Positions 1 to 12,929 of a DNA stretch of 45,964 bases are shown piece after piece. The stretch lies in the NCBI GenBank assembly GCA_031296075.1, contig JARLGK010000086.1, forward strand, positions 1-45,964, written 5' to 3'. This DNA comes from Candidatus Acidiferrales bacterium. GTDB lineage: Bacteria > Acidobacteriota > Terriglobia > Acidiferrales > UBA7541. Below the pieces are notes generated by a model. It saw only the letters and a program-made list of their open reading frames with translations. It did not search any database and had not been told where the DNA came from. A program made the position numbers and the translations under genes. How positions within the stretch are numbered: position 1 is the stretch's first letter; every line of letters starts with the position of its first letter.

Positions 1-100
1 ACACTGTGGCCCAGCGATTGGGGGTTCTTCTCCCAGCGGTTTTCATCGCCTGTTCGCAACGAAGCCTGTCCGTTCCGAAACCAGCAAAGCAGAACCTCGG

Positions 101-331
101 TCAGTTGGCGACCATAGTTCTATCCGGGACTCGTGGCCCATAGCTTTTTCTGATTATCCGAGAGGGCCTAGGGTCGGGTGGGCACACCCACTTGGCGTGG
201 GAAGCTCGCGGCACGCGTTCGCGCAGTGCTTTTCCTGCGGTCATCCTCTCCTTGACCGTCAGGCCGTAGAGCTTCGCGTCCTCGCGCGGAATGTTTTCGA
301 TCTTGGTCCGTCGTACCTTCGCGTTTTTCAA
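101..331 (-). pseudogene. DUF2252-like protein, N-terminal remnant
   Basis: A 76-codon reading frame carries the sequence AGKALRERVPRASHAKW followed by a Pro-Asp-Pro-Arg stretch. This resembles the conserved start of DUF2252 proteins, where an A-G-(K/R)-A-L-R-x-x-V-P-R-x-S-H-A signature precedes an arginine/tyrosine-glycine-arginine segment. DUF2252 proteins are normally around 400 residues, but this frame stops after residue 76. Another frame downstream on the same strand contains Tyr-Gly-Arg at the place expected for the family's next motif, which suggests a frameshift. The rest of the gene would lie left of the window. The function of DUF2252 is not established, although a kinase-like fold has been proposed. 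The match is from memory of the family pattern. Confidence 0.5.
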
Positions 332-592
332 TTCATTTCTCTTCGAATGATGTTGCTTGCCGTATAAAATGCCCCCCGGTGGCGGGCCCGGTCAAGTGGC
401 ATTGTCCAGGTATGGAATTTCCTCCAATCAGGTTGAGCTCTGAAAATCGACTTTTGACACGTATAAGAGCTCAAGGGCCGGCGCGCCATGAGTTGCTCAC
501 TAGTTTTGCGGTTCCGGATCAATGGTCCCAAGTCGTGAGTAATTGTCGGACCCGACCTGCCCGAGGTCATGCGGCTAACTCCTGATTAGTCG
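332..592. other. Intergenic stretch, no gene recognised
   Basis: This stretch lies between the DUF2252 remnant and the left inverted repeat. Short open frames exist on both strands but none has recognisable protein character, a ribosome-binding site or a family motif. It is probably decayed intergenic DNA next to a rearrangement junction at 593. Confidence 0.5.
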
Positions 593-807
593 TGCCGGTT
601 CAGACGGTCGACGCAACACCCTCTAAACAGTAGTTCCGATAATACGTTTCAGAGAAGACCGATCTATTGGGCTGCCCTCACTTAGACCTAATCAGGACAG
701 GGTTTTCTTTGAACCGACGCCCGCAATCGTATTTGGCCTTTAAACTCCGCGAGATAGACTTCGAGCCGGTGTCGCATCGACCTATTGAGACCACCGCGTT
801 AATCAGG
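593..807 (+). repeat. Left 215-bp inverted repeat of the receptor cassette
   Basis: Positions 593-807 are the reverse complement of 6748-6962 with about ten mismatches by hand alignment, six of them in the outer 200 bases. The match starts abruptly at TGCCGGTTCAGACGG on the outer side. On the inner side it fades past 807 into weak similarity. No coding frame was recognised inside this copy. The two copies point inward and enclose the genes at 1074-6558. Confidence 0.9.
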
Positions 808-1073
808 AATTAGCCGCGGGCAAGCTGACTCCGATGAACCGAACGGGTTTCGCGAGTGCTTTGAATCGCGACGCGAATCGCTCTCCACGTCACAACGCTC
901 TCACTTTGGTTTCATCAAACCTTCACACGTCTAAGCTTTAATGTACCGCTAGGACTCGTCGGAAACACACTTGGCGCGGGCTGCCCGGGGCGCTCGCCGA
1001 CGATGCCGGATGGTGGACAGTTCTCGAAATCTGTTCTCAATTCAGATTGCAGCACTCGAGGAGGAAACCGACT
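808..1073. other. Leader region upstream of the first TonB-dependent receptor
   Basis: No gene is seen here. The only clear signal is the ribosome-binding site GAGGAGG at about 1059-1065, some 9 bases before the ATG at 1074. I found no convincing -35/-10 pair. Confidence 0.45.
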
Positions 1074-4000
1074 ATGCGGATCCGTCGCCTGTGCGTGATT
1101 GTGTTTCTACTGATCGCTGGCGGCTTTCGTCCCGCTGCCGCTCAGACAGATCGCGCCAGCCTAGAGGGGACCGTAACTGATCCCGCCGGCGCAACGATCG
1201 CCGGCGCCAAAGTGACGACTACGGCGGTTGCCACCGCAGAGGTTCTAACGCGCACCACCAACGCCCACGGGTTTTATCGTTTTCCGGGAATCGCTGTTGG
1301 CGTGTATAGCGTGGAAGTCTCACGCGACGGATTCAGTACGAAAGTGATCGAGGATGTGGACCTGCAAGTTGGCGAAACGCACACGCTCGATGTGCCCCTC
1401 GCGCTTGGCAGAGTCTCCGAGCGCGTTGAAGTAAAGGCCTCCAACGAGCCCGCAGAACGCAGTACCGCTGCGGCTGCAACCGTCATTCGCGATGACCAGA
1501 TCGAGAACTTGCCCGTCAACGGTCGCGACTGGGCCAGCCTGACCTTGCTCGCTCCGTTTGCGCAAGACGACGGCGGCGGCGACCAGCGCACGATACGGTT
1601 CGCAGGACGAGCGCGCGACGACAACAATTTCAGTTTCGACGGAGTGGACGCTGGCGGAATTCAGGAACAGGCGCAAAAGTCTCAAACCAGGCTGCAGGTT
1701 TCCGAGGATTCCATTCAAGAATACCGGGTCAACAGCGCCCTTTACGACGCCGAATACGGCACGCAGGCGGGCGGGCAGATCAACGTGGTCACCAAGTCGG
1801 GGACGAACGACTTCCACGGGACTGTTTTCGGCTACTTGAGGAACTCCGTGCTGGATGCCCGCAATTTTAACGATCCGCCGACGATCCCTCCGTTTCGCAT
1901 GGGACAGTATGGTTTGACCATCGGCGGGCCAATCGTCAAGGACAAGACATTCTTTTTCATAGGCTACGAAGGCCTAAGGCAATTCCAGGGAACAACAGTA
2001 GTCGCCACAGTGCCCAATCCTGACTTTCTCAACCAGGTGCTGGTCACGGGCAACGGCGGCTCGGGACCGGCACCGAACATGTGCCCCATCCTCCAGTCCT
2101 ACCCTTGGCAGAAATCGATCGGGACGGTCGGAGGATGCGCACCGCGGTTTACTTTCGCAGACAGCTTCTTCAGCGCCGTATCAGGTGACGGACAGAGCTT
2201 CACGCACGTATCTCCCACAACGGTGCACGAAGACACCTGGCTGGTGCGGATTGACCATAAGTTCACCGACAAGACCACGCTCTACGGCCGCGCGCAACGC
2301 GACATTAGCCTGGTTGCCGGCCCGCAGGGCAACTTGTTTGACGAGCTGAGGACGATCAATCATCCGGCGAACTATTTCATCGCCCTACAGCACGTTTTCA
2401 CGCCGAATCTCGCAAATGAAGCAAAGGTTTACGTCAACCGCTCGCCCTTCCAGAATCCTCAAGCCAGCGTTCTTCATTATCAAGTCAACATGCTCGATTT
2501 CGAGCCCATCAACAACAACCAGGCGGACATTGAAATCGGGACGACATACGGCTTGATCGACAACCTGACCTGGACTCACGGCCGTCACACGTTCAAAACC
2601 GGGATGGAAATCCGCCGGGTTCGTCTCAATCAGGGCAAGACGGCCAGCAACACCCTTAGCTTCGGCAGCAACCCCCAGGAGGTGTTCAATGGTCAGGTCG
2701 ATCAAGTTAGCTTTACGGCTCCCTGGTGCTGCCACAAACTGCGGCGCGCCTTCTATATGCCGTACTTTGAGGACGAGTGGAAGATTACGTCCACGGTCAC
2801 GGCAAATCTGGGGATTCGCTACGAATACTACGGCGTTGCGAACGAGGCCGACGGTAGAACCACCGTGTTCGATTTGGACCAATTCCACGGCGTTTGCTTG
2901 GGACCGACGTCAACAAATATCGCACCGAGCCCGGGTCCCATCAATACTCCGGCCTGCCCGCGCAATCCAGCTCTGTACAACCCTGATTACCTGAACTTTG
3001 ATCCACGCGTAAGCCTGGCTTGGGCTCCGGGTGCTCTTCACAACAAAACAGTGATTCGTGCTGGCTTCGGCATCTATCACGGTGCCGCTCAAAACGACGA
3101 CCTGAATGCGGGACTTGAAAGCGACACGTTTACGGGGAATCTGCAGGGCCCCGTGACTCTGATCCCAGCCTTCGAGCAGACCGTCCCGGACCTGACAGGT
3201 TTCGCGAACGCCGCGAATGCTCCTCGCGCTCTGCAACGGCATGGCCGGCGGGATCTTTACGCCGAGGAATGGGGACTCACGGTCGACCACGAATTGCCCG
3301 CCGACTTCCTCTTCACGGCATCGTATCTGGGGACTCGTGGCGTAAGGCTGTTTTCGCGTGGCGCAGTCAATTTGTGCACCAGTCCGCCGGATGTAAACGG
3401 CAATTGCCCGCGGCCGCTGGACCAATTCTATCCAGGAGGAGATCCCTTCACGTCGGTCGACATAAAAAGCGACATCGGGTCGAGCACCTACCACGCTTTG
3501 GAGCTTTCGCTCGAGCGGCGATTCACCAACGGCTTTTCGTTTCAATCGCGCTATACGTGGTCCCACTCGATCAATGATGGTTCGATTGGAGGCGGCGAAT
3601 CGGTGGGCCCGCAAGACGTGAACTGCCTCAAATGCGAGATTGGACCGAGCATTTATGACGTTCGCCATAACTTCGTAACGGACACCGTTTACGAGCTTCC
3701 CATCGGACCGGGAAAGCCGTTCCTGCAAAATGACGGCGTGGCAGGGAAGCTTCTTGGAGGCTGGAGCGTGAGCGGCGTTGGTCTGTGGCACACGGGTCAT
3801 CCTCTGACGGTTCTGTTTGGCGTCCAGCCAAGCCAGGTCCCCGACGGCAATGACCAGCAGACTGCCGACCGCCCCGACGTGGTTCCGGGCGTGCCCCTTT
3901 ACGTTCCCGGAGGAGGACACAATGGTGTGCCACTGATCAACATCAACGCGTTCACAGCACCTCCGCTGAATCCCGCTGGACTGGGTTCCATGCCAACCGT

Positions 4001-4361
4001 CTTTCCGGGAGCCATCGCCCGATTCGGGAACGAACCGAATGGATTTATTCGGGCCCTTCCCTCCTGGCAAATTGACTTTGCGCTGACGAAGGAAACGAAA
4101 TTGACCGAGCGGTTCGCAATGGAGTTCGGAGTGGAGGCTTTCAACATCCTGAACCACACCCAGCTCGGCGATCCGAGCCTGCTAACAATTAACTACGGGC
4201 AGGCGACGCCGGGGGGGGCATTTACGCTGCTTCCGACGGATCAATTCTCCGTAATCAACAGGACGGTGAACTTCAACAACAACAACGACAACGCTGCATC
4301 GCCGAACACGGGCACCGGTTTGCCGCGGCAAATCCAGTTCATGCTGCGATTCAAGTTCTAA
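1074..4361 (+). CDS. TonB-dependent receptor with carboxypeptidase-regulatory-like domain
   Basis: This is a predicted outer-membrane receptor of 1095 residues. The start at 1074 is chosen because GAGGAGG lies just upstream and the protein then opens with a signal peptide (MRIRRLCVIVFLLIAGG, cleaved after a run ending AAAQ). Residues about 30-110 form a carboxypeptidase-regulatory-like Ig fold (LEGTVTDPAGATIAGAKV). A plug domain follows at about 120-230 (ENLPVNGRDW, then GGQINVVTKSGTNDFHG). The remainder is a beta-barrel ending in an aromatic residue (QFMLRFKF). This architecture is typical of large acidobacterial receptors thought to take up carbohydrate or other polymers with TonB energy, but the ligand cannot be read from the sequence. 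It is followed 34 bases later by a secreted phosphoesterase and then a beta-propeller protein, all on the same strand. Confidence 0.9.
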   Translation: MRIRRLCVIVFLLIAGGFRPAAAQTDRASLEGTVTDPAGATIAGAKVTTTAVATAEVLTRTTNAHGFYRFPGIAVGVYSVEVSRDGFSTKVIEDVDLQVGETHTLDVPLALGRVSERVEVKASNEPAERSTAAAATVIRDDQIENLPVNGRDWASLTLLAPFAQDDGGGDQRTIRFAGRARDDNNFSFDGVDAGGIQEQAQKSQTRLQVSEDSIQEYRVNSALYDAEYGTQAGGQINVVTKSGTNDFHGTVFGYLRNSVLDARNFNDPPTIPPFRMGQYGLTIGGPIVKDKTFFFIGYEGLRQFQGTTVVATVPNPDFLNQVLVTGNGGSGPAPNMCPILQSYPWQKSIGTVGGCAPRFTFADSFFSAVSGDGQSFTHVSPTTVHEDTWLVRIDHKFTDKTTLYGRAQRDISLVAGPQGNLFDELRTINHPANYFIALQHVFTPNLANEAKVYVNRSPFQNPQASVLHYQVNMLDFEPINNNQADIEIGTTYGLIDNLTWTHGRHTFKTGMEIRRVRLNQGKTASNTLSFGSNPQEVFNGQVDQVSFTAPWCCHKLRRAFYMPYFEDEWKITSTVTANLGIRYEYYGVANEADGRTTVFDLDQFHGVCLGPTSTNIAPSPGPINTPACPRNPALYNPDYLNFDPRVSLAWAPGALHNKTVIRAGFGIYHGAAQNDDLNAGLESDTFTGNLQGPVTLIPAFEQTVPDLTGFANAANAPRALQRHGRRDLYAEEWGLTVDHELPADFLFTASYLGTRGVRLFSRGAVNLCTSPPDVNGNCPRPLDQFYPGGDPFTSVDIKSDIGSSTYHALELSLERRFTNGFSFQSRYTWSHSINDGSIGGGESVGPQDVNCLKCEIGPSIYDVRHNFVTDTVYELPIGPGKPFLQNDGVAGKLLGGWSVSGVGLWHTGHPLTVLFGVQPSQVPDGNDQQTADRPDVVPGVPLYVPGGGHNGVPLININAFTAPPLNPAGLGSMPTVFPGAIARFGNEPNGFIRALPSWQIDFALTKETKLTERFAMEFGVEAFNILNHTQLGDPSLLTINYGQATPGGAFTLLPTDQFSVINRTVNFNNNNDNAASPNTGTGLPRQIQFMLRFKF

Positions 4362-4395
4362 CGGTCGCCGGACGGCACCGATTTTTGGAGCTGCC

Positions 4396-5340
4396 ATGAT
4401 AAGAAGCTTGATCGTCCTGTCTGGCTGTGTGGCGGGAGCGATTGCATTCGCTGGCTTGGATCAAACAAATTACGAGAGCGGAAGCCCGGGCTCTTCGATC
4501 GCTACATTACAAGTGACATCTTCGGCTTCGGCGAGTCGAGATCCCGTTCTCGTCGGTGCGGGCGATATCGCCGATTGCGCCGATCTTTCCGGGGCGAAGG
4601 CAACAGCTAATCTTATTGATGCAATTGGAGGTACCGTCTTCACCGCCGGGGACAATGCCTACGAGGAAGGAACTGCGCAACAATTTCGCGAATGTTACGG
4701 CCCGACCTGGGGACGGTTCAAGGCCCGTACGCGTCCTTCGCCCGGCAATCATGAATTTCATTCCAGCAGCGCGGCTCCCTATTTCGACTATTTCGGCGCG
4801 AATGCGGGTGACCCCAAGACGGGCTACTACAGCTACAATCTCGGCTCGTGGCACGTGATCGTCTTGAACAGCGAGTGCGTTGAGGTCGGTGGCTGCCAAG
4901 CCGGATCCGCCGAGGAGAAGTGGCTACGGGCCGATCTCGCCGCACATCCGGCTGTCTGCACCGTCGCCTATTGGCATAAACCACTATTTAGTTCCGGGGC
5001 AAAGCACGGGAATGATCCTGAGGTAAGACCCTTCTGGCGGGATCTCTACGAGTCGAAAGCTGCGTTAGTCATCAACGGCCACGATCATGATTACGAGCGC
5101 TTTGCACCCCAGGATCCTGATGGTCGGGCCGATCCCGCTCACGGCATTCGCGAATTCGTCGTCGGGACCGGCGGAAAGAGCCATCGGCCTTTCGCAACGC
5201 CGTTGCCCACCAGCGAAGTCCGCAACGCAGACACCTATGGAGTACTCAAATTGACCCTGCACGCGCATAGCTATGACTGGGAGTTTCTACCCGAAGCCGG
5301 AAAGGCGTTTCGTGATGTCGGGGCCGGCAGTTGCCAATGA
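4396..5340 (+). CDS. Secreted metallophosphoesterase
   Basis: This 314-residue protein belongs to the calcineurin-like / purple-acid-phosphatase-like superfamily. The metal-binding motifs appear in order: GDIADC near residue 56, GDNAY near 85, GNHE at 117-120, WHKP near 193 and NGHDHDYE near 227. Together they supply the usual Asp, Asn and His ligands of a dinuclear metal centre. An N-terminal hydrophobic segment (residues about 4-20) suggests export, so it probably acts on phosphoesters in the periplasm or outside the cell. The ATG at 4396 follows the receptor stop by 34 bases, so co-transcription is likely. Placement behind a TonB-dependent receptor suggests phosphate release from a substrate handled by that receptor, which is inference. 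The substrate could be a phosphomonoester or a phosphodiester. Confidence 0.85.
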   Translation: MIRSLIVLSGCVAGAIAFAGLDQTNYESGSPGSSIATLQVTSSASASRDPVLVGAGDIADCADLSGAKATANLIDAIGGTVFTAGDNAYEEGTAQQFRECYGPTWGRFKARTRPSPGNHEFHSSSAAPYFDYFGANAGDPKTGYYSYNLGSWHVIVLNSECVEVGGCQAGSAEEKWLRADLAAHPAVCTVAYWHKPLFSSGAKHGNDPEVRPFWRDLYESKAALVINGHDHDYERFAPQDPDGRADPAHGIREFVVGTGGKSHRPFATPLPTSEVRNADTYGVLKLTLHAHSYDWEFLPEAGKAFRDVGAGSCQ

Positions 5341-5502
5341 CGTACGTTCGCCGTTATCTCCTCCGTATAACACACGGCTATGCTCGCGGCCCGATCACCG
5401 GGATGTAGAATCGCTTCGATACAAATTGTCGACACGGTGGCGTGAAATTGGCACAAAGGGACACGGACTACAACGACAGTTAGCGTTGCGAGGGAGGTTT
5501 GT

Positions 5503-6558
5503 ATGAAGTTTTGTGGTCTCGGTCGTATGGCAAGTGGCGCGCTAATCGGCCTGCTCGGGAGCGTTTCGCTTTTGATCGCGGGAACGAATGCTTATCACCT
5601 ACTCAAGAAGTATAGCTTCAGCGCAGCCGAAGGCAGCACTCGAGAATACTTCGACTACATCACGGTCGATTCCGCCTCGCGACGCGTCTATCTTTCCCAT
5701 GGCACCGAAATCAAGGTTATTGACGCCGATGACGGCGCGCTGATCGGCAACGTCACGGGCCTGAAGCTCGATCACGGCGTCGCATTAGCCACGGAGTTCG
5801 GCCGCGGCTTCATTAGCGACGGCGTGCAAGGGAAGGTAACCGTTTTCGACCTGAAGACACTTATGGTAACGGGCCAGATCGATGCCGACAAGGACGCTGA
5901 CTGCGTCGTCTACGATCCCTTTTCGAAACGGGTCTTCGTCATGAACGGCGACCCTCACAATGCCACCGTCATCGACGCCAAGAGCGACGCCGTAGTCGGC
6001 AAGATTGACCTCGGCGGCGGACCTGAGTTTGCCGTCGCCGACGGCAAGGGGACGATTTACATCAATCTAGAAGACAAGAACGAAATCGTTGCGGTGGACT
6101 CTAGTTCCCTGAAAATCAAATCGCGCTGGCCGGTCGCTCCCGCCGGAGGGCCCACGGCTCTTGCCATGGACATTCGACACCACCGCCTCTTCAGCGCGGG
6201 CCGCGATCCCCAAATGCTCGTAGTGCTCGACTCCGACAATGGGAAGGTGCTCCAGTCATTCCCGATCTCCGGCGGCGTGGACGCCGCGGCCTACGACCCC
6301 GAAACAGGTCTGATCTTCGCTTCGACGCGCGAAGGCATGGTGCACGTGTTCCACGAGGATTCGCCCGACAAATTCATCGCAGTGGAGACCATCAAGACAG
6401 AAATTGGCGCCAAGACCATGGGGCTCGACACCAAGACCCACAAAGTATTCCTCGACACCGCGGATTTCGAGCCGGCGCCCTCCCCCACCGCGGATCGGCC
6501 GCACCCCAGGCCAGCCGCAATTTTGGGAACGTTTCATGTACTGGTTTACGGGAGATGA
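5503..6558 (+). CDS. Secreted YncE/YVTN-type beta-propeller protein
   Basis: This 351-residue protein has an N-terminal signal or anchor segment (hydrophobic residues about 10-28) followed by repeated blades of about 40-45 residues. Examples are DYITVDSASRRVYLSHG, DCVVYDPFSKRVFVMNG, TALAMDIRHHRLFSAG and AAYDPETGLIFAS. These repeats match the YncE/YVTN beta-propeller family, which is usually periplasmic and whose roles are mostly unknown. A good ribosome-binding site (GGGAGG) lies about 8 bases before the ATG. The gene lies 162 bases after the phosphoesterase on the same strand and inside the inverted-repeat segment. No catalytic motif is seen, so a binding or scaffold role is possible. Confidence 0.8.
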   Translation: MKFCGLGRMASGALIGLLGSVSLLIAGTNAYHLLKKYSFSAAEGSTREYFDYITVDSASRRVYLSHGTEIKVIDADDGALIGNVTGLKLDHGVALATEFGRGFISDGVQGKVTVFDLKTLMVTGQIDADKDADCVVYDPFSKRVFVMNGDPHNATVIDAKSDAVVGKIDLGGGPEFAVADGKGTIYINLEDKNEIVAVDSSSLKIKSRWPVAPAGGPTALAMDIRHHRLFSAGRDPQMLVVLDSDNGKVLQSFPISGGVDAAAYDPETGLIFASTREGMVHVFHEDSPDKFIAVETIKTEIGAKTMGLDTKTHKVFLDTADFEPAPSPTADRPHPRPAAILGTFHVLVYGR

Positions 6559-6747
6559 CGCGTTTCCAGGTCATCGCAAATCGCTGATTCCGCCAGATCG
6601 GGAGCCTGGCATCGCGCTGACCGTCGATTTACACGATAATTTTCGCGGGACGACGGCTGCTGGAGTCTGCAACCCTTTACTGCCGAAGCCTCCTGCTGAC
6701 CCCCCTCTCCTTTATGGAAGCTCTTTGACAGCAGCCCGTCGCTAGTG
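6559..6747. other. Intergenic stretch between propeller gene and right repeat
   Basis: No gene is recognised between the propeller stop and the right inverted repeat. Short open frames on both strands lack ribosome-binding sites and family motifs. No clear hairpin followed by a T-run marks a terminator. Confidence 0.45.
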
Positions 6748-6962
6748 CCTGATAAGTTCGGTGGTCTCAATGGGTCGATGCAACACCAGCTCGAAGTCTA
6801 TCTCGCGGAGTTTAAAGGTCAAATACGATTGCGGGCGTCGATTCAAAGAAAACCCTGTCCTGATTAGGTCTAAGTGAGGGCACCCCAATAGATCGGTCTT
6901 CTCTGAAACGTATTATCGGAACTACTGTTTAGAGGGTGTTGCGTCGACCGTCTGAACCGGCA
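6748..6962 (-). repeat. Right 215-bp inverted repeat of the receptor cassette
   Basis: This is the reverse-complement partner of 593-807. Its outer edge (CCGGCA, 6957-6962) falls inside the last codons of the following receptor gene. That gene's frame therefore continues for about 31 codons into the repeat before reaching a stop at 6870. No matching target-site duplication is visible in the few bases outside the two repeats. Confidence 0.9.
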
Positions 6963-9305
6963 TCTTTTTGAGGGAAAGTCGAAGCGCATGCCGAAGCGCC
7001 CCGCGATCGGCAATCCCCTCTGCGCTGGAGAGAGAGACGTGGCGGCAGTGGAAACATATTCCTGGTCGAAAAGATTTTCGACCGCCGTGAAGACCTCGAT
7101 TCCATGAGTCAAACTGCGCGACGCCATGGCGTCGAGAACGAAAAAGTTGCCCATCGGAAGTTGGTTTGTGTCGAACTGCATTCCGACCATGCGGCCCTCC
7201 ACCGAGAATGAGATCAGCGACGGATTCGTGTAGCGTGCCTGGAATGTGAGCTCATTGTGCGGGACCTGGGCTACCCATTGGTTCACGAGCGACGGTTGTC
7301 CGGGAGCGCTGATCACGGTTGCATCTACGTACTGATATCCGCCAGATAACTGCAGGCGATCGGTGATTCGCGCGAGCCAATCCAGTTCGAACCCGGGTGC
7401 GCTCGTGCGGCCTAAATTCGCGCGCACGAACGTGAAAGTATTGGCGGTAGGCGCCGGGCAGATTGCCGGGAGCGGCGTGACCTGACAGGAGACGCTGGAA
7501 ATTGGATTGATGATTTCATTGAAGAAAAACGATCCGTGAAATTGCAGCCGCCCGTTGAATTCTTGTGCCGCAATGCCTGCTTCGCCGCCGGTGAGCCGTT
7601 CGGCAGTCAGGTTCGCGTTGGCAACGGTCAGGTTGTTGGCTTGCCGGAACGATCGGTAAAGTTCGTTCAGCGTCGGCGCGCGAAACGCCCGATATACGGA
7701 CGCCGACCACGAAACATGCGAATTCACCTCATGGACCAGGCTCGCTCTGGGGCTGAAAGCCGTGTACGAGCGGCTGGCGTACGGAAGAGTGACGGTTGGG
7801 CCCGCAGGCGTAATGGGAACTGTGACCAGGAACGCATCGAAGTTCCGCCAATCGTCGAACCGCGCGCTCACCGCCAGCGTCCATCGCGGCGCGATTTGAA
7901 TGATGTCCTCGCCGAACACGCCGGCAGTACGCTGATGGCCGCCCGTTGCGGTATCCCTCAAATTGTTTCCAGTGATGGCCGAAAATATCTGCTCGTTGCT
8001 ATGGCCGAGTTCGACGTGTTCGTCGAATCCCGCCACCAGCGTTTGGCGTTTTCCCAACCCGCGCGACCAGACGGCCGAACCGCCGATGCCCTGCGCGGGA
8101 ACCGTCTGCAAATCCGTGAGGTGCTGGCTATTTTGATCCAGAGGGACGGAATCAAAGGTTTGGTGATAGGTCTGAAAGACCGCGTAAGAACGCAATTGCA
8201 GCGTGCCAAACGAACCAAAATCCAGATTCGCGCCCAGCGCTCCCTGGCCAAGGCGAATGCTGTTCGTCTGTCCAAATGTTCCGTTATTGCGCGAGTCGTT
8301 GAAATACCACCCGCGCGCAAAGGCTTCGCCGTCGGCGCCGATCTTGCGGGCGATCGTCAGATCGGCGGTGCCGTGCTGAGAATATGCATCCCTATCCACG
8401 CTGCCCTGGCTGGCTTCCGGAACGAGCGTGTAGCCATCCGTGTGAAACGCTTCGCCGGCAAACGTGGATTCCCAGCGCCCTATGCCGCCGCTCGCCGCGA
8501 GCGAGATGTCCTGCGTGTTTTGGTTGCCATAGGATGTTTCCAGCGATACGCCGCCATATTCGGCAGGCCGCGTGAGAAATTGGACCACGCCGCCCAACGC
8601 CTCGCTTCCGTACAGGCTGGATGCTCCCTCCTGCGCCACTTCGACGCTCGCGACTGACACGCTGGGAACGCGATCCCAATAAACCCAGGAGCCAAATGGA
8701 TCGTTCAGTGGGATGCCGTCCTCGAGCACGAGGGCGCGGCTTGCGCCGTTGGCCCCAAGCCCGCGGAGCGAGACTCCGAGCGTGGTCGGATTCGCGGTGC
8801 GGCTGCTGCTGCGTCGAAAGAGACTGAAGCCGGGAACCTGACGCAGCGCATCGTCCAGCGTCAGAGCAGGGGTTGCTCGCAGGTCCTCATGCATAAGCTC
8901 GATGTCGCTGACCGGCGCTTCTCCCAGCGGAGTCGCGGTGCGGGCTGCCGTCACCGTTACTCGCTGGTTCACGGAGAGAGGCTGCAGGACGATGCTGATC
9001 TGCACCGGCACTCCGGCGGCCGTCGTCCAAGTCTGTCGCGGTTCCTGAAAACCGTTCGCCGTGACTACGACGGTCCCGGACTTTTCGGACACGCCGTCGA
9101 ACGCGAATGCCCCCGATCTGTCGGTGGTCGTCGCTGCCGAATATGAATTGGCGCTGAGCTTGATCTGCGCCCCCGGCACGGAAGCGCCGCTCCCATCCCG
9201 CACCGCTCCTTCCACGCGAATCCCCTGCGCGAACACCCGCGGCGCCCCGGCGACCGCCAGCAACATCAACAGCGCAAAGCATCTTCCTGCCGCGATTGAC
9301 TTCAT
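6870..9305 (-). CDS. TonB-dependent receptor, C-terminus altered by the inverted repeat
   Basis: This is a predicted outer-membrane receptor of about 811 residues. The chosen ATG at 9305 begins a clean signal peptide (MKSIAAGRCFALLMLLAVAG, then VFAQG). An in-frame ATG 36 bases upstream is possible but lies almost on top of a TATAAT box. After an N-terminal carboxypeptidase-regulatory-like domain (VEGAVRDGSGASVPGAQI) comes a canonical plug (ALTLDDALRQVPGFSLFRR, then GVSLRGLGANGASRALVLEDG and SSLYGSEALGGVVQF), so it is closer to classic siderophore/cobalamin-type receptors than the receptor at 1074. The barrel should end near RFGMRFDF. Instead the frame runs on through about 35 arginine- and serine-rich residues, almost all encoded by the inverted repeat, so the natural stop has been lost. 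Whether the extended barrel still inserts is uncertain. It is transcribed away from the pqq operon. Confidence 0.85.
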   Translation of the reverse strand: MKSIAAGRCFALLMLLAVAGAPRVFAQGIRVEGAVRDGSGASVPGAQIKLSANSYSAATTTDRSGAFAFDGVSEKSGTVVVTANGFQEPRQTWTTAAGVPVQISIVLQPLSVNQRVTVTAARTATPLGEAPVSDIELMHEDLRATPALTLDDALRQVPGFSLFRRSSSRTANPTTLGVSLRGLGANGASRALVLEDGIPLNDPFGSWVYWDRVPSVSVASVEVAQEGASSLYGSEALGGVVQFLTRPAEYGGVSLETSYGNQNTQDISLAASGGIGRWESTFAGEAFHTDGYTLVPEASQGSVDRDAYSQHGTADLTIARKIGADGEAFARGWYFNDSRNNGTFGQTNSIRLGQGALGANLDFGSFGTLQLRSYAVFQTYHQTFDSVPLDQNSQHLTDLQTVPAQGIGGSAVWSRGLGKRQTLVAGFDEHVELGHSNEQIFSAITGNNLRDTATGGHQRTAGVFGEDIIQIAPRWTLAVSARFDDWRNFDAFLVTVPITPAGPTVTLPYASRSYTAFSPRASLVHEVNSHVSWSASVYRAFRAPTLNELYRSFRQANNLTVANANLTAERLTGGEAGIAAQEFNGRLQFHGSFFFNEIINPISSVSCQVTPLPAICPAPTANTFTFVRANLGRTSAPGFELDWLARITDRLQLSGGYQYVDATVISAPGQPSLVNQWVAQVPHNELTFQARYTNPSLISFSVEGRMVGMQFDTNQLPMGNFFVLDAMASRSLTHGIEVFTAVENLFDQEYVSTAATSLSPAQRGLPIAGRFGMRFDFPSKRCRFRRSTQHPLNSSSDNTFQRRPIYWGALT

Positions 9306-9349
9306 CCCGCACGACAGAGGTTTCTGTTGGCTTGGCTTCATGCGGCGTC

Positions 9350-9648: not shown

Positions 9649-10575
9649 ATGCGTATTAAGGTCCTCGGCTCAGCCGCGGGCGGTGGGTTCCCGCAGTGGA
9701 ATTGCGGGTGCTCAAACTGCGACCACGCGCGCCGAGGACTGCATGGCTTCCGCCCTCGTACCCAGGCTCAAGTGGCTGTTTCCCCTGCTCCCGCCGCGTG
9801 GTTTCTCCCAAACGCTTCGCCCGACCTCCGTCAGCAGCTCTTGCAAGATCCTGAATTTGCCCCCGCTAAAAGCACGCGCGGCACGCCGGTCTCTGCCCTC
9901 ATTCTGATGAGCGCGGACGTGGATTGCGTGATGGGCCTTCTCCATCTGCGCGAGTTCCAGCCGCTGCGAGTGTACGCGACGCCGTCCGTGCTCCGCGTGC
10001 TGAAGGAGGAGAACTCTCTTTTCCGCAGCCTCGAGCGATCCGTGCCTCCGGTCCAATGGGAAGCCCTTCCGCTCGATCGGCCTGTCTCCGTCTTTCAGCA
10101 CGGTGAAGCGAAATCCATCCTGACCTGTAAAGCCGTGCCACTCGGAGGCGACTACCCGGATTACGTCAGCGCCGGCCTCCGAAAAAATCTGGCGAACGAC
10201 GAAGCCGTCATCGGTCTCGAATTCGTGCAGAACGGCAAGAAATTCTTCTACGCCCCAAGCCTTTCCGGCCGCGATGAAGCATGGAAATGCCATGCCAGGG
10301 AAAGCGATCTCGCGCTCATCGATGGCACGTTCTGGACCGACGACGAACTGATTGACGTCCGCGGCAGCGGCAAGACCGCCCGCCAGATCGGCCACGTCCC
10401 TCTTTCTGGACCGGGCGGAATGCTCGAACAATTTCCGCGTGACGCCAAAGGCCGCCGCGTTCTGATTCATTTGAACAACACCAATCCCGCGCTCGATGAA
10501 GCGAGCGCCGCGAGCGGAACTCTCCGCGACGCCGGCTGGGAAGTTGCTTATGATGGAATGGAGTTCGAACTGTGA
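9649..10575 (+). CDS. pqqB: PqqB, PQQ biosynthesis metallo-hydrolase-fold protein
   Basis: This protein has 308 residues, close to the usual length of about 300. The N-terminus MRIKVLGSAAGGGFPQWNC, followed by GCSNC, is the signature PqqB start. The protein has a metallo-beta-lactamase-like fold. In the family it acts on the cross-linked Glu-Tyr intermediate as an iron-dependent hydroxylase, and older work assigned it to PQQ export. The ATG at 9649 follows pqqA by 7 bases. The stop overlaps the pqqC start by the four bases GTGA, indicating translational coupling. Confidence 0.95.
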   Translation: MRIKVLGSAAGGGFPQWNCGCSNCDHARRGLHGFRPRTQAQVAVSPAPAAWFLPNASPDLRQQLLQDPEFAPAKSTRGTPVSALILMSADVDCVMGLLHLREFQPLRVYATPSVLRVLKEENSLFRSLERSVPPVQWEALPLDRPVSVFQHGEAKSILTCKAVPLGGDYPDYVSAGLRKNLANDEAVIGLEFVQNGKKFFYAPSLSGRDEAWKCHARESDLALIDGTFWTDDELIDVRGSGKTARQIGHVPLSGPGGMLEQFPRDAKGRRVLIHLNNTNPALDEASAASGTLRDAGWEVAYDGMEFEL

Positions 10576-11324
10576 GCGACGCCAACTCCAACGCGATGCT
10601 TCCCGAAGCCGACTTCGTCGCGCAGTTCCGCGCCATTGGCAAGGAGCGCTACCACCATCAGCATCCGTTCCACCTGCTGATGCACGAAGGAAAACTCACG
10701 CGTGGCCAGTTGCAGGCCTGGGCGCTGAACCGCTATTCCTATCAGAGCAGCATTCCCATCAAGGATGCAGCGATCCTCGCGCGCACCGACGATCCTGCGT
10801 TTCGCCTCGCTTGGCGCAAGCGCATTATCGACCATGATGGCGACGGCACGCGGCCCGGCGGAATCGAAAAGTGGCTGAAGCTTGTCGAGGCCACGGGCCT
10901 CACACGCGAAGAGGCGATTCGCGGCGATGGAATTCTGCCCGCGACAAAATATGCCGTCGGCGCCTACGTGGATTTCGTCAGCAAGCGCACGCATCTTGAG
11001 GCCGTGGCTTCCTCCCTCACCGAACTTTTCTCGAAGGATCTCATCACTCTGCGCGTGGACCGGCTGCGCGAGCATTACCCGTGGCTTTCCAGCGGCCTCG
11101 ACTATTTTCAGGGCCGCATGACGCAGGCGCCGGAAGACGCGACTTTCGCGCTCGCCTGGGTGGTCAAGCACGCGCGCAACCGCGAGGAACAGGAGCTCGC
11201 TCTCGCCGCGCTCCGCGCCAAGTGCGACATCTTATGGGCCATGCTGGATGCTCTCTATTTCGCGTACGTCGAGCCCGGCTGGCCGCCGCCGGGCGCATTC
11301 TGCCCCGCGAAGGAATCCGCGTGA
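10572..11324 (+). CDS. pqqC: PqqC, pyrroloquinoline-quinone synthase
   Basis: This protein has 250 residues, the normal length of the family. PqqC is a cofactorless oxidase that closes the ring and carries out the final multi-electron oxidation to PQQ. Recognisable features are the HQHPFH-like segment near residue 30, the motif ALNRYSYQSSIPIKDA, and a helical-bundle composition. The start is GTG at 10572, overlapping the pqqB stop. The end overlaps the GTG of pqqD in the same way, so B-C-D are translated as a coupled set. Confidence 0.95.
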   Translation: MSDANSNAMLPEADFVAQFRAIGKERYHHQHPFHLLMHEGKLTRGQLQAWALNRYSYQSSIPIKDAAILARTDDPAFRLAWRKRIIDHDGDGTRPGGIEKWLKLVEATGLTREEAIRGDGILPATKYAVGAYVDFVSKRTHLEAVASSLTELFSKDLITLRVDRLREHYPWLSSGLDYFQGRMTQAPEDATFALAWVVKHARNREEQELALAALRAKCDILWAMLDALYFAYVEPGWPPPGAFCPAKESA

Positions 11325-11599
11325 CGCCCGATCCAACCAAGCGCCCGCGCCTCGCGCCGGGCTGCCGCCTCAATGAAAAGTCTCAGCCGTCGCGCGTGCT
11401 CCTGATGCCGGAACGCGCGCTGCGGCTCAACGGCCCGAGCTTGGAAATCGTCGAGCGCTGCGACGGAAATCACACCGTGCAGCAAATCGTCGCGGACTTG
11501 CAGAAATTGTATTCGAAAGCGGCGCCGCAAAAAGTCGAGCAGGATATCCTCGGCTATTTGGAGCGCCTCCAGGAACAGCGCGCCCTGGATTTCGAATGA
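11321..11599 (+). CDS. pqqD: PqqD, PqqA-binding chaperone
   Basis: This 92-residue protein starts at the GTG overlapping the pqqC stop. PqqD binds PqqA and presents it to the radical-SAM enzyme PqqE. The family pattern is visible in the opening KRPRLAPGCRL, the central LLMPERALRLNGPSLEIVERCDG and the later VQQIVADL. A longer open frame extends upstream through pqqC but has no supporting protein features. PqqE follows only after 196 bases that hold repeat DNA. Confidence 0.93.
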   Translation: MTPDPTKRPRLAPGCRLNEKSQPSRVLLMPERALRLNGPSLEIVERCDGNHTVQQIVADLQKLYSKAAPQKVEQDILGYLERLQEQRALDFE

Positions 11600-11663
11600 A
11601 GCCAGTGGTGGGGAGCCATTTGTGTCCATTGAAATCATGCCGCGCGGCCGTGGTTTGCGTAGC

Positions 11664-11680
11664 GCCGGCGTCTCGCCGGC
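11664..11680. repeat. GC-rich hairpin downstream of pqqD
   Basis: GCCGGCG, a TCT loop and CGCCGGC form a perfect 7-bp stem. There is no T-run after it on either strand, so it is more likely a REP-type palindrome than an intrinsic terminator. It sits directly before the longer repeat at 11683. Confidence 0.6.
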
Positions 11681-11682
11681 TC

Positions 11683-11753
11683 TCGTAGGGGCACGGTCCG
11701 CCAATAATTCAGGGCGGATGCCCGGCGCCAATGCTTGGCACTGACTCGCCATT
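11683..11753 (+). repeat. REP-like repeat, long form, copy 1
   Basis: A stretch of about 70 bases begins TCGTAGGGGCACGGTCCGCC and continues to GGCGGATGCCCGGCGCC. It recurs at 13963-14033 in the same orientation with roughly 85-90% identity. Its arms (GGGGCAC and GTGCCC-like; CCGCC and GGCGG) can form a cruciform. Shorter relatives lie at 12964 and 16526. It separates pqqD from pqqE. Confidence 0.75.
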
Positions 11754-11795
11754 CGCGCTCCTAGCATCTAACAACGAGCGGTCGGTCGCTGCCCG

Positions 11796-12929
11796 ATGAA
11801 CACAATCTCAAATCCTCTCGCTCTTGTCGCCGAGCTGACTCACCGGTGTCCGCTGCACTGCGTCTACTGCTCGAATCCTCTGGAGCTGACCGCGCGAAGC
11901 CGCGAGGTTTCCACCGCCTCGTGGGCGCGCGTCCTGCGCGAAGCCGCCGAACTCGGCGTGCTGCAAGCTGACTTCACCGGTGGCGAGCCGCTGGCCCGTC
12001 CCGACCTGACCGAAATAATCCGCGCCGCGCGCGCCGCCGGCCTGTACGCCAGCATGATCACCTCGGGCTTGCCCCTCGATGAAAAGCGCCTCGAAGAGCT
12101 CGTGGCCGCGGGGCTCGACCATTTCCAGCTCAGTTTTCAGGGCGCGGAGGAAGAAGCCGCGCGTGAATTCTCCGGCACGCGCACGCACGCCCAGAAATTG
12201 CGCGTCGCCGAGTGGGTGAAGCGCCACCGCATTGGATTCACCCTCAATTTCGTGATTCATCGCGGCAACTTGCACCAGCTCGACGACATGATCGCGCTGA
12301 CGGAAAAAATCGCGCCCGGGCGCGTGGAATTCGCCCACGTCCAGTATTACGGCTGGGCGTTCGCCAATCGCGCGCGCCTGCTGCCCACGCGCGCGCAGCT
12401 CGATCGCTCGCTCGAAATCCTGAAAAAGGCGGAAGAGCGCCTGCGCGGCCGGATCAAAGTCGAATACGTCGTCCCGGATTATTATGCAAAGTATCCCAAG
12501 CCCTGCATGGGCGGCTGGGGACGCAAAGTAATCCTCGTCAAGCCCGATGGCGACGTGCTGCCGTGCCACGCCGCGAACGTCCTGCCGGGAATGACGTTTG
12601 AAAATGTCGCAAATCGTTCGCTCCGCCAGATTTGGGAAGAATCGGACGCGTTTCAGAAATTCCGCGGCGTGGATTGGATGCCCGACCTCTGCCGCACCTG
12701 CGATCGCCGCGAACAGGATTTCGGCGGCTGCCGTTGCCAGGCTTTTCTGCTGGCGCATGACGCCTCGACGACCGATCCGATCTGCTCGCTTTCACCGCAG
12801 CGCGGCATCGTGGACGCAATTCTCCGCGACGTGAACGCCGCCGCGCCCGGCGCAATCGCGCCGGAAACCACTGCGCCCGGTGCCGCCACTCCGCCAGCCG
12901 AGTGGCTGTATCGCCCCAATCCCGAGTGA
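11796..12929 (+). CDS. pqqE: PqqE, radical-SAM PqqA cross-linking enzyme
   Basis: This 377-residue protein forms the carbon-carbon bond between the Glu and Tyr side chains of PqqA. The radical-SAM cluster motif is C18-PLH-C22-VY-C25. The SPASM-type auxiliary-cluster cysteines appear in the C-terminal third (PKPCMGGWG, LPCHAA, LCRTCDRREQDFGGCRC). The length fits the family (about 370-390). The start ATG follows the repeat-bearing 196-base gap after pqqD, so pqqE may be less tightly coupled to B-C-D. The last 30 residues are alanine/proline-rich and look like a disordered tail. Confidence 0.95.
   Translation: MNTISNPLALVAELTHRCPLHCVYCSNPLELTARSREVSTASWARVLREAAELGVLQADFTGGEPLARPDLTEIIRAARAAGLYASMITSGLPLDEKRLEELVAAGLDHFQLSFQGAEEEAAREFSGTRTHAQKLRVAEWVKRHRIGFTLNFVIHRGNLHQLDDMIALTEKIAPGRVEFAHVQYYGWAFANRARLLPTRAQLDRSLEILKKAEERLRGRIKVEYVVPDYYAKYPKPCMGGWGRKVILVKPDGDVLPCHAANVLPGMTFENVANRSLRQIWEESDAFQKFRGVDWMPDLCRTCDRREQDFGGCRCQAFLLAHDASTTDPICSLSPQRGIVDAILRDVNAAAPGAIAPETTAPGAATPPAEWLYRPNPE

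Follow-up and report, generated by a model that had tools for sequence, protein, structure and literature searches.

IS30, of the IS30 family of insertion sequences (E. coli IS30 and its relatives), duplicates 2 bp of target on insertion and prefers as targets near-palindromic hot spots and its own inverted repeats (PMC9333248). Active IS30 junctions, in addition, yield insertions, deletions and inversions (PMC9333248). The locus described here lies in a window of 45,964 nt, the whole stretch of DNA analysed, from the genome of a Candidatus Acidiferrales bacterium, and consists of two long inverted repeats that form the ends of positions 593-6962. We consider that the two arms are copies of one non-autonomous IS30-family MITE and that they enclose ordinary genes of the chromosome, neither transposing nor inverting, a reading to which we assign a probability of about 0.86.

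The inverted repeats and their family

A repeat search of the window returned an inverted pair of 229 nt (593-821 and 6734-6962, 94% complementary), and no other inverted pair longer than 36 nt was found in 12 kb. Alignment of the arms places the repeat unit proper at 203 bp with 6 mismatches, its inner edge lying at ...GAGACCACC (795 and 6760). The inverted repeats reported in the earlier note are therefore real, and their sharp outer edge was correctly placed, at TGCCGG on either side; the length and identity given there, 215 bp at about 95%, come close to the values for the core and the pair. Past the inner edge, an extra 15-26 bp of weaker similarity corresponds to the target half-site TTATCAGG...TAG. 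The inner flanks in this stretch resemble each other weakly (TTAATCAGGAATTAGCCGCGGG versus CTTATCAGGCACTAGCGACGGG) and are insertion target outside the repeat; the similarity extends to 229 bp because a target half-site is common to the inner flanks of both copies. A longer unit (573-815), in which the outer TAATCAGG motifs were taken as terminal repeats, was ruled out because independent copies begin sharply at 1 and stop sharply at 203, exactly where the 2-bp duplications sit, and because the outer motif varies more.

Table 1 Features of the locus (window coordinates).
Feature	Position	Strand	Remarks
Left half of target palindrome at copy 1	571..592	+	GCGGCTAACTCCTGATTAGT + CG; half-site consensus from flanked copies
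MITE copy 1 (left arm)	593..795	+	203 bp, ends TGCCGG...GACCACC; register 1-203 as in ~20 full-length copies elsewhere; IS30-like termini
Right half of target at copy 1	796..817	-	GC + GTTAATCAGGAATTAGCCGC on + strand; GC does not match CG opposite
TonB-dependent receptor, CarboxypepD_reg + OMP_b-brl_4	1047..4361	+	Pfam; enclosed, outside the element
Calcineurin-like metallophosphoesterase	4396..5340	+	Pfam PF00149; 78% homologue in G004 beside propeller gene, without MITE
YncE-like beta-propeller	5503..6558	+	Pfam; relatives 73-81% identical in other Acidobacteria MAGs without MITE
Target half-site, inner side of copy 2	6738..6759	+	GTCGCTAGTGCCTGATAAGT + TC (GA in element orientation)
MITE copy 2 (right arm)	6760..6962	-	203 bp, 97% identical to copy 1; GA/GA 2-bp duplication
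Second TonB-dependent receptor (receptor 2), stop codon displaced by MITE copy 2	6870..9341	-	Native end ...FDFPSKR, then 30 MITE-encoded residues

The repeat is not restricted to this site, as the earlier note had considered it might be, but occurs across the bacterial family. A first search matched it in 16 of 61 relatives' genomes, and a family-wide search in 37 of 89 genomes and 5 of 13 genera, where about 20 full-length copies keep the exact register 1-203. Multiple copies are dispersed in unrelated contexts. The source genome carries two further copies, on C176 (72-73% identical) and C28 (~75%), both older than the window pair.

The parentage of the element can be read from its ends and its interior. 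In relatives, some matches consist of the two ends alone, ~1.2 kb apart, with a transposase gene between them. Intact IS30-type transposases are present in G001, G006 and G009 (scores over the cut-off of the NCBIfam IS30 model NF033563), and an intact copy with HTH_38 and rve domains is found in G023 (Pfam). Over 27 bp the MITE end is 89-96% identical to the ends of the intact elements of G001, G009 and G023; read inward, the G001 element has TGCCGGCTCAGACGGTCGACGCAACACT at its 3' end, where the window has TGCCGGTTCAGACGGTCGACGCAACACC. No transposase gene lies within the window copies, whose interior is derived from the parent element: translated MITE copies encode a decayed transposase C-terminus (residues ~332-385, the last ~55 residues). 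This remnant is seen in copies from G070 (62% over 32 aa, E 1e-8), G106 and G001 (~41% over 54-55 aa, E ~1e-7) and on C176 of the source genome (57% over 61 aa), and as a weak match in the window copies (E 0.002). Because the arms share their ends with transposase-bearing elements and retain this decayed C-terminus, we identify them as internally deleted IS30-family elements, that is, MITEs. No intact IS30-family transposase was found in the source genome, a MAG that is 89% complete, which counts against this identification; the MITE is presumably mobilised in trans by such an enzyme.

Target sites of the two copies

With the unit set at 203-209 bp, both flanks are available for 30 copies. In 23 of them the two 2-bp flanks are identical, whereas re-pairing the flanks in 20,000 shuffles gave a mean of 6.3 and a maximum of 14. 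The next 10-15 bp outward form palindrome half-sites on both sides (left consensus ..A.tTcCCGATAAg), and this palindromic target resembles the IS30 hot spot. An exact search for unoccupied target palindromes found none, which carries no information because chance alone would supply hardly any. A transposase acting in trans would recognise the ~27-bp terminal repeats, place the element in the middle of a degenerate palindrome, approximately CnAnnTCCkGATAA-NN-[2 bp]-NN-TTATCmGGA, and duplicate the central 2 bp; by such events two related copies could have come to sit 6 kb apart in opposite orientation.

The right copy is flanked by GA on both sides and by one good half-site, and judging from these flanks it appears to be a plain solo insertion. 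The absence of a target duplication, which the earlier note had reported, therefore applies to the segment as a whole (CG versus TC) but not to the right copy alone. This insertion has altered the end of receptor 2. The C-termini of 8 homologues end in a short basic tail (for example ...FPRRR or ...FPKR before the stop), and the window protein reads ...MRFDFPSKR before continuing into the MITE. Since removing the MITE and one GA does not bring back a stop at the native end, the loss of a few bases there as well is possible.

Both half-sites of the left copy are good, but its 2-bp flanks disagree (CG/GC), which suggests, and we infer, an origin in later recombination between copies, in IR-targeted insertion without duplication, or in an assembly join. 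For this copy alone, and compatibly with the MITE explanation, we entertain tentatively, without favouring it, that the left junction arose as a chimera or by recombination, the DNA left of 593 and that right of 795 having been joined via two different MITE copies, either in the cell or by the assembler. The flanks, GT-CG before the element and GC-GT after it, are halves of two palindrome types, copies flanked by GC/GC carrying GC-GT on the right, and one MITE copy in G009 (C113, L194) mixes the two types reciprocally to the left window copy. The contig also ends 592 bp left of copy 1, and in other genomes contig breaks coincide with copies of the MITE. Six other copies of the 30, however, have mismatched 2-bp flanks too, so imperfect duplications are not rare. 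The suggestion of a relic of duplication or inversion survives in part, as rearrangement is possible at the left copy, whose flanks mismatch, while inversion between the arms is unsupported, since it would break the matched GA/GA.

Sequence beyond the two copies was compared with that of relatives. Window 1-592 has no match in the relatives examined; on its minus strand (104-391), a reading frame resembles by eye the start of a DUF2252-type protein and is then broken, with no Pfam match. To the right, receptor 2 and its pqqB/C/E-like neighbours are conserved in G001. These neighbours (9649-12929) comprise Lactamase_B_2, TENA/PqqC-like and radical SAM/SPASM genes, a pqqB/pqqC/pqqE-like set divergent from receptor 2 and found in the same order in G001:C29 (L143). 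A search by synteny found no empty MITE site, since each relative examined has different DNA downstream of receptor 2.

Enclosed genes and origin of the segment

Pfam confirms the enclosed genes as the earlier note named them: a TonB-dependent receptor, a phosphoesterase and a YncE-like propeller. G004 has receptor, phosphoesterase and propeller in the same order without the MITE, its receptor being of a different subtype. There (G004:C29, L151 6708-13959) the trio runs in one direction and adjoins a HAMP/HisKA sensor kinase, which suggests a regulated uptake operon. Near propeller homologues in other Acidobacteria MAGs no MITE was found, save for one 25-bp terminal match (L034).

Of the 4 copies detected in the source genome, the two most similar sit within 6 kb of each other, and the chance of one random copy falling so near another is ~0.4% (2 x 5.97 kb / 3.19 Mb). 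This closeness, which also counts against our reading, suggests some linkage, a local hop or joint arrival. MITE pairs a few kb apart recur in either orientation (for example G110:C2, G106:C241, G022:C77 and G081:C4), and for this reason the clustering looks like a habit of the MITE and not of the enclosed genes. One such pair (G110:C2:50073-51995, L208) is inverted, with copies 1.5 kb apart and arms 81% identical, around one gene whose product looks like a metalloprotease of the M50 type bearing CBS domains.

The two window copies probably inserted separately. The alternative of a composite transposon, in which the 6.4-kb segment arrived as one unit through the action of a transposase on the outer ends of the two MITEs, is unlikely, even though the outer ends of both arms are intact IS30-type termini and the window copies are sisters (97%) where other copies in the genome reach ~72-76%. 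The segment has a GC content of 0.57-0.59, slightly below that of the genes to its right (0.61-0.63), its receptor has no close homologue in 19 congeners (best ~33%), and MITE-bounded mobilisation of other genes has been described for other families (PMC10969869). We nevertheless reject it because the outer 2 bp should match but are CG and TC, leaving no duplication around the whole segment; in addition, the outer right flank lacks a clear target half-site, and a GA/GA duplication brackets the right copy by itself, on its inner and outer sides, as expected of a solo insertion. No second copy of the whole unit was found in the source genome (G000), nor the same unit at another site or in another genome, the G004 trio being without the MITE. 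The broader proposal, that receptor/phosphoesterase operons travel among Acidobacteria in a composite transposon formed by two IS30-type MITEs, with transposase in trans, we hold to be slightly more improbable again. What stands of the non-autonomous mobile cassette that had been suggested is the mobile, non-autonomous nature of the repeats; the unit that moves, however, is the single 203-bp arm and not the 6.4-kb segment.

Least probable is an invertible segment, in which recombination between the arms flips 796-6759. RecA could recombine inverted repeats of 203 bp that are 97% identical, but the present orientation keeps the GA/GA match, whereas flipping would leave flanks of CG/GA and GA/GC, with no match at either copy, and Pfam identifies no site-specific recombinase gene within the segment. 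We reject inversion because the matched GA/GA would have to be coincidence; the duplications and target half-sites lend no support to the switch that the earlier note had proposed.

Relation to described elements

Once the arms are recognised as MITEs, the repeats are accounted for and neither a cassette nor a phase switch is claimed in error. The analysis also contributes, from uncultured Acidobacteria, an IS30-derived MITE family whose palindromic target and 2-bp duplication are defined, and an example of a MITE displacing a stop codon and lengthening an outer-membrane receptor by 30 residues. The window element is like the IS30 family in its terminal repeat pattern, 2-bp duplication and near-palindromic hot-spot targeting, and its family's transposase remnant belongs to that same family; unlike IS30, it is 203 bp long, has no coding capacity and must be moved in trans. 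With bacterial MITEs generally (PMC10969869) it shares a short length, terminal inverted repeats, derivation from an internally deleted IS and dispersal, and it is otherwise an ordinary MITE, although the text of that review mentions neither IS30 nor Acidobacteri-. The placement of two miniature elements on either side of host genes is similar to that of Tn3-derived TIMEs (PMC4133298) and of the MITEs flanking blaPER-1 (cited in PMC10969869). Compared with these TIME- and MITE-bounded elements, the window segment differs in having no target duplication around the whole.
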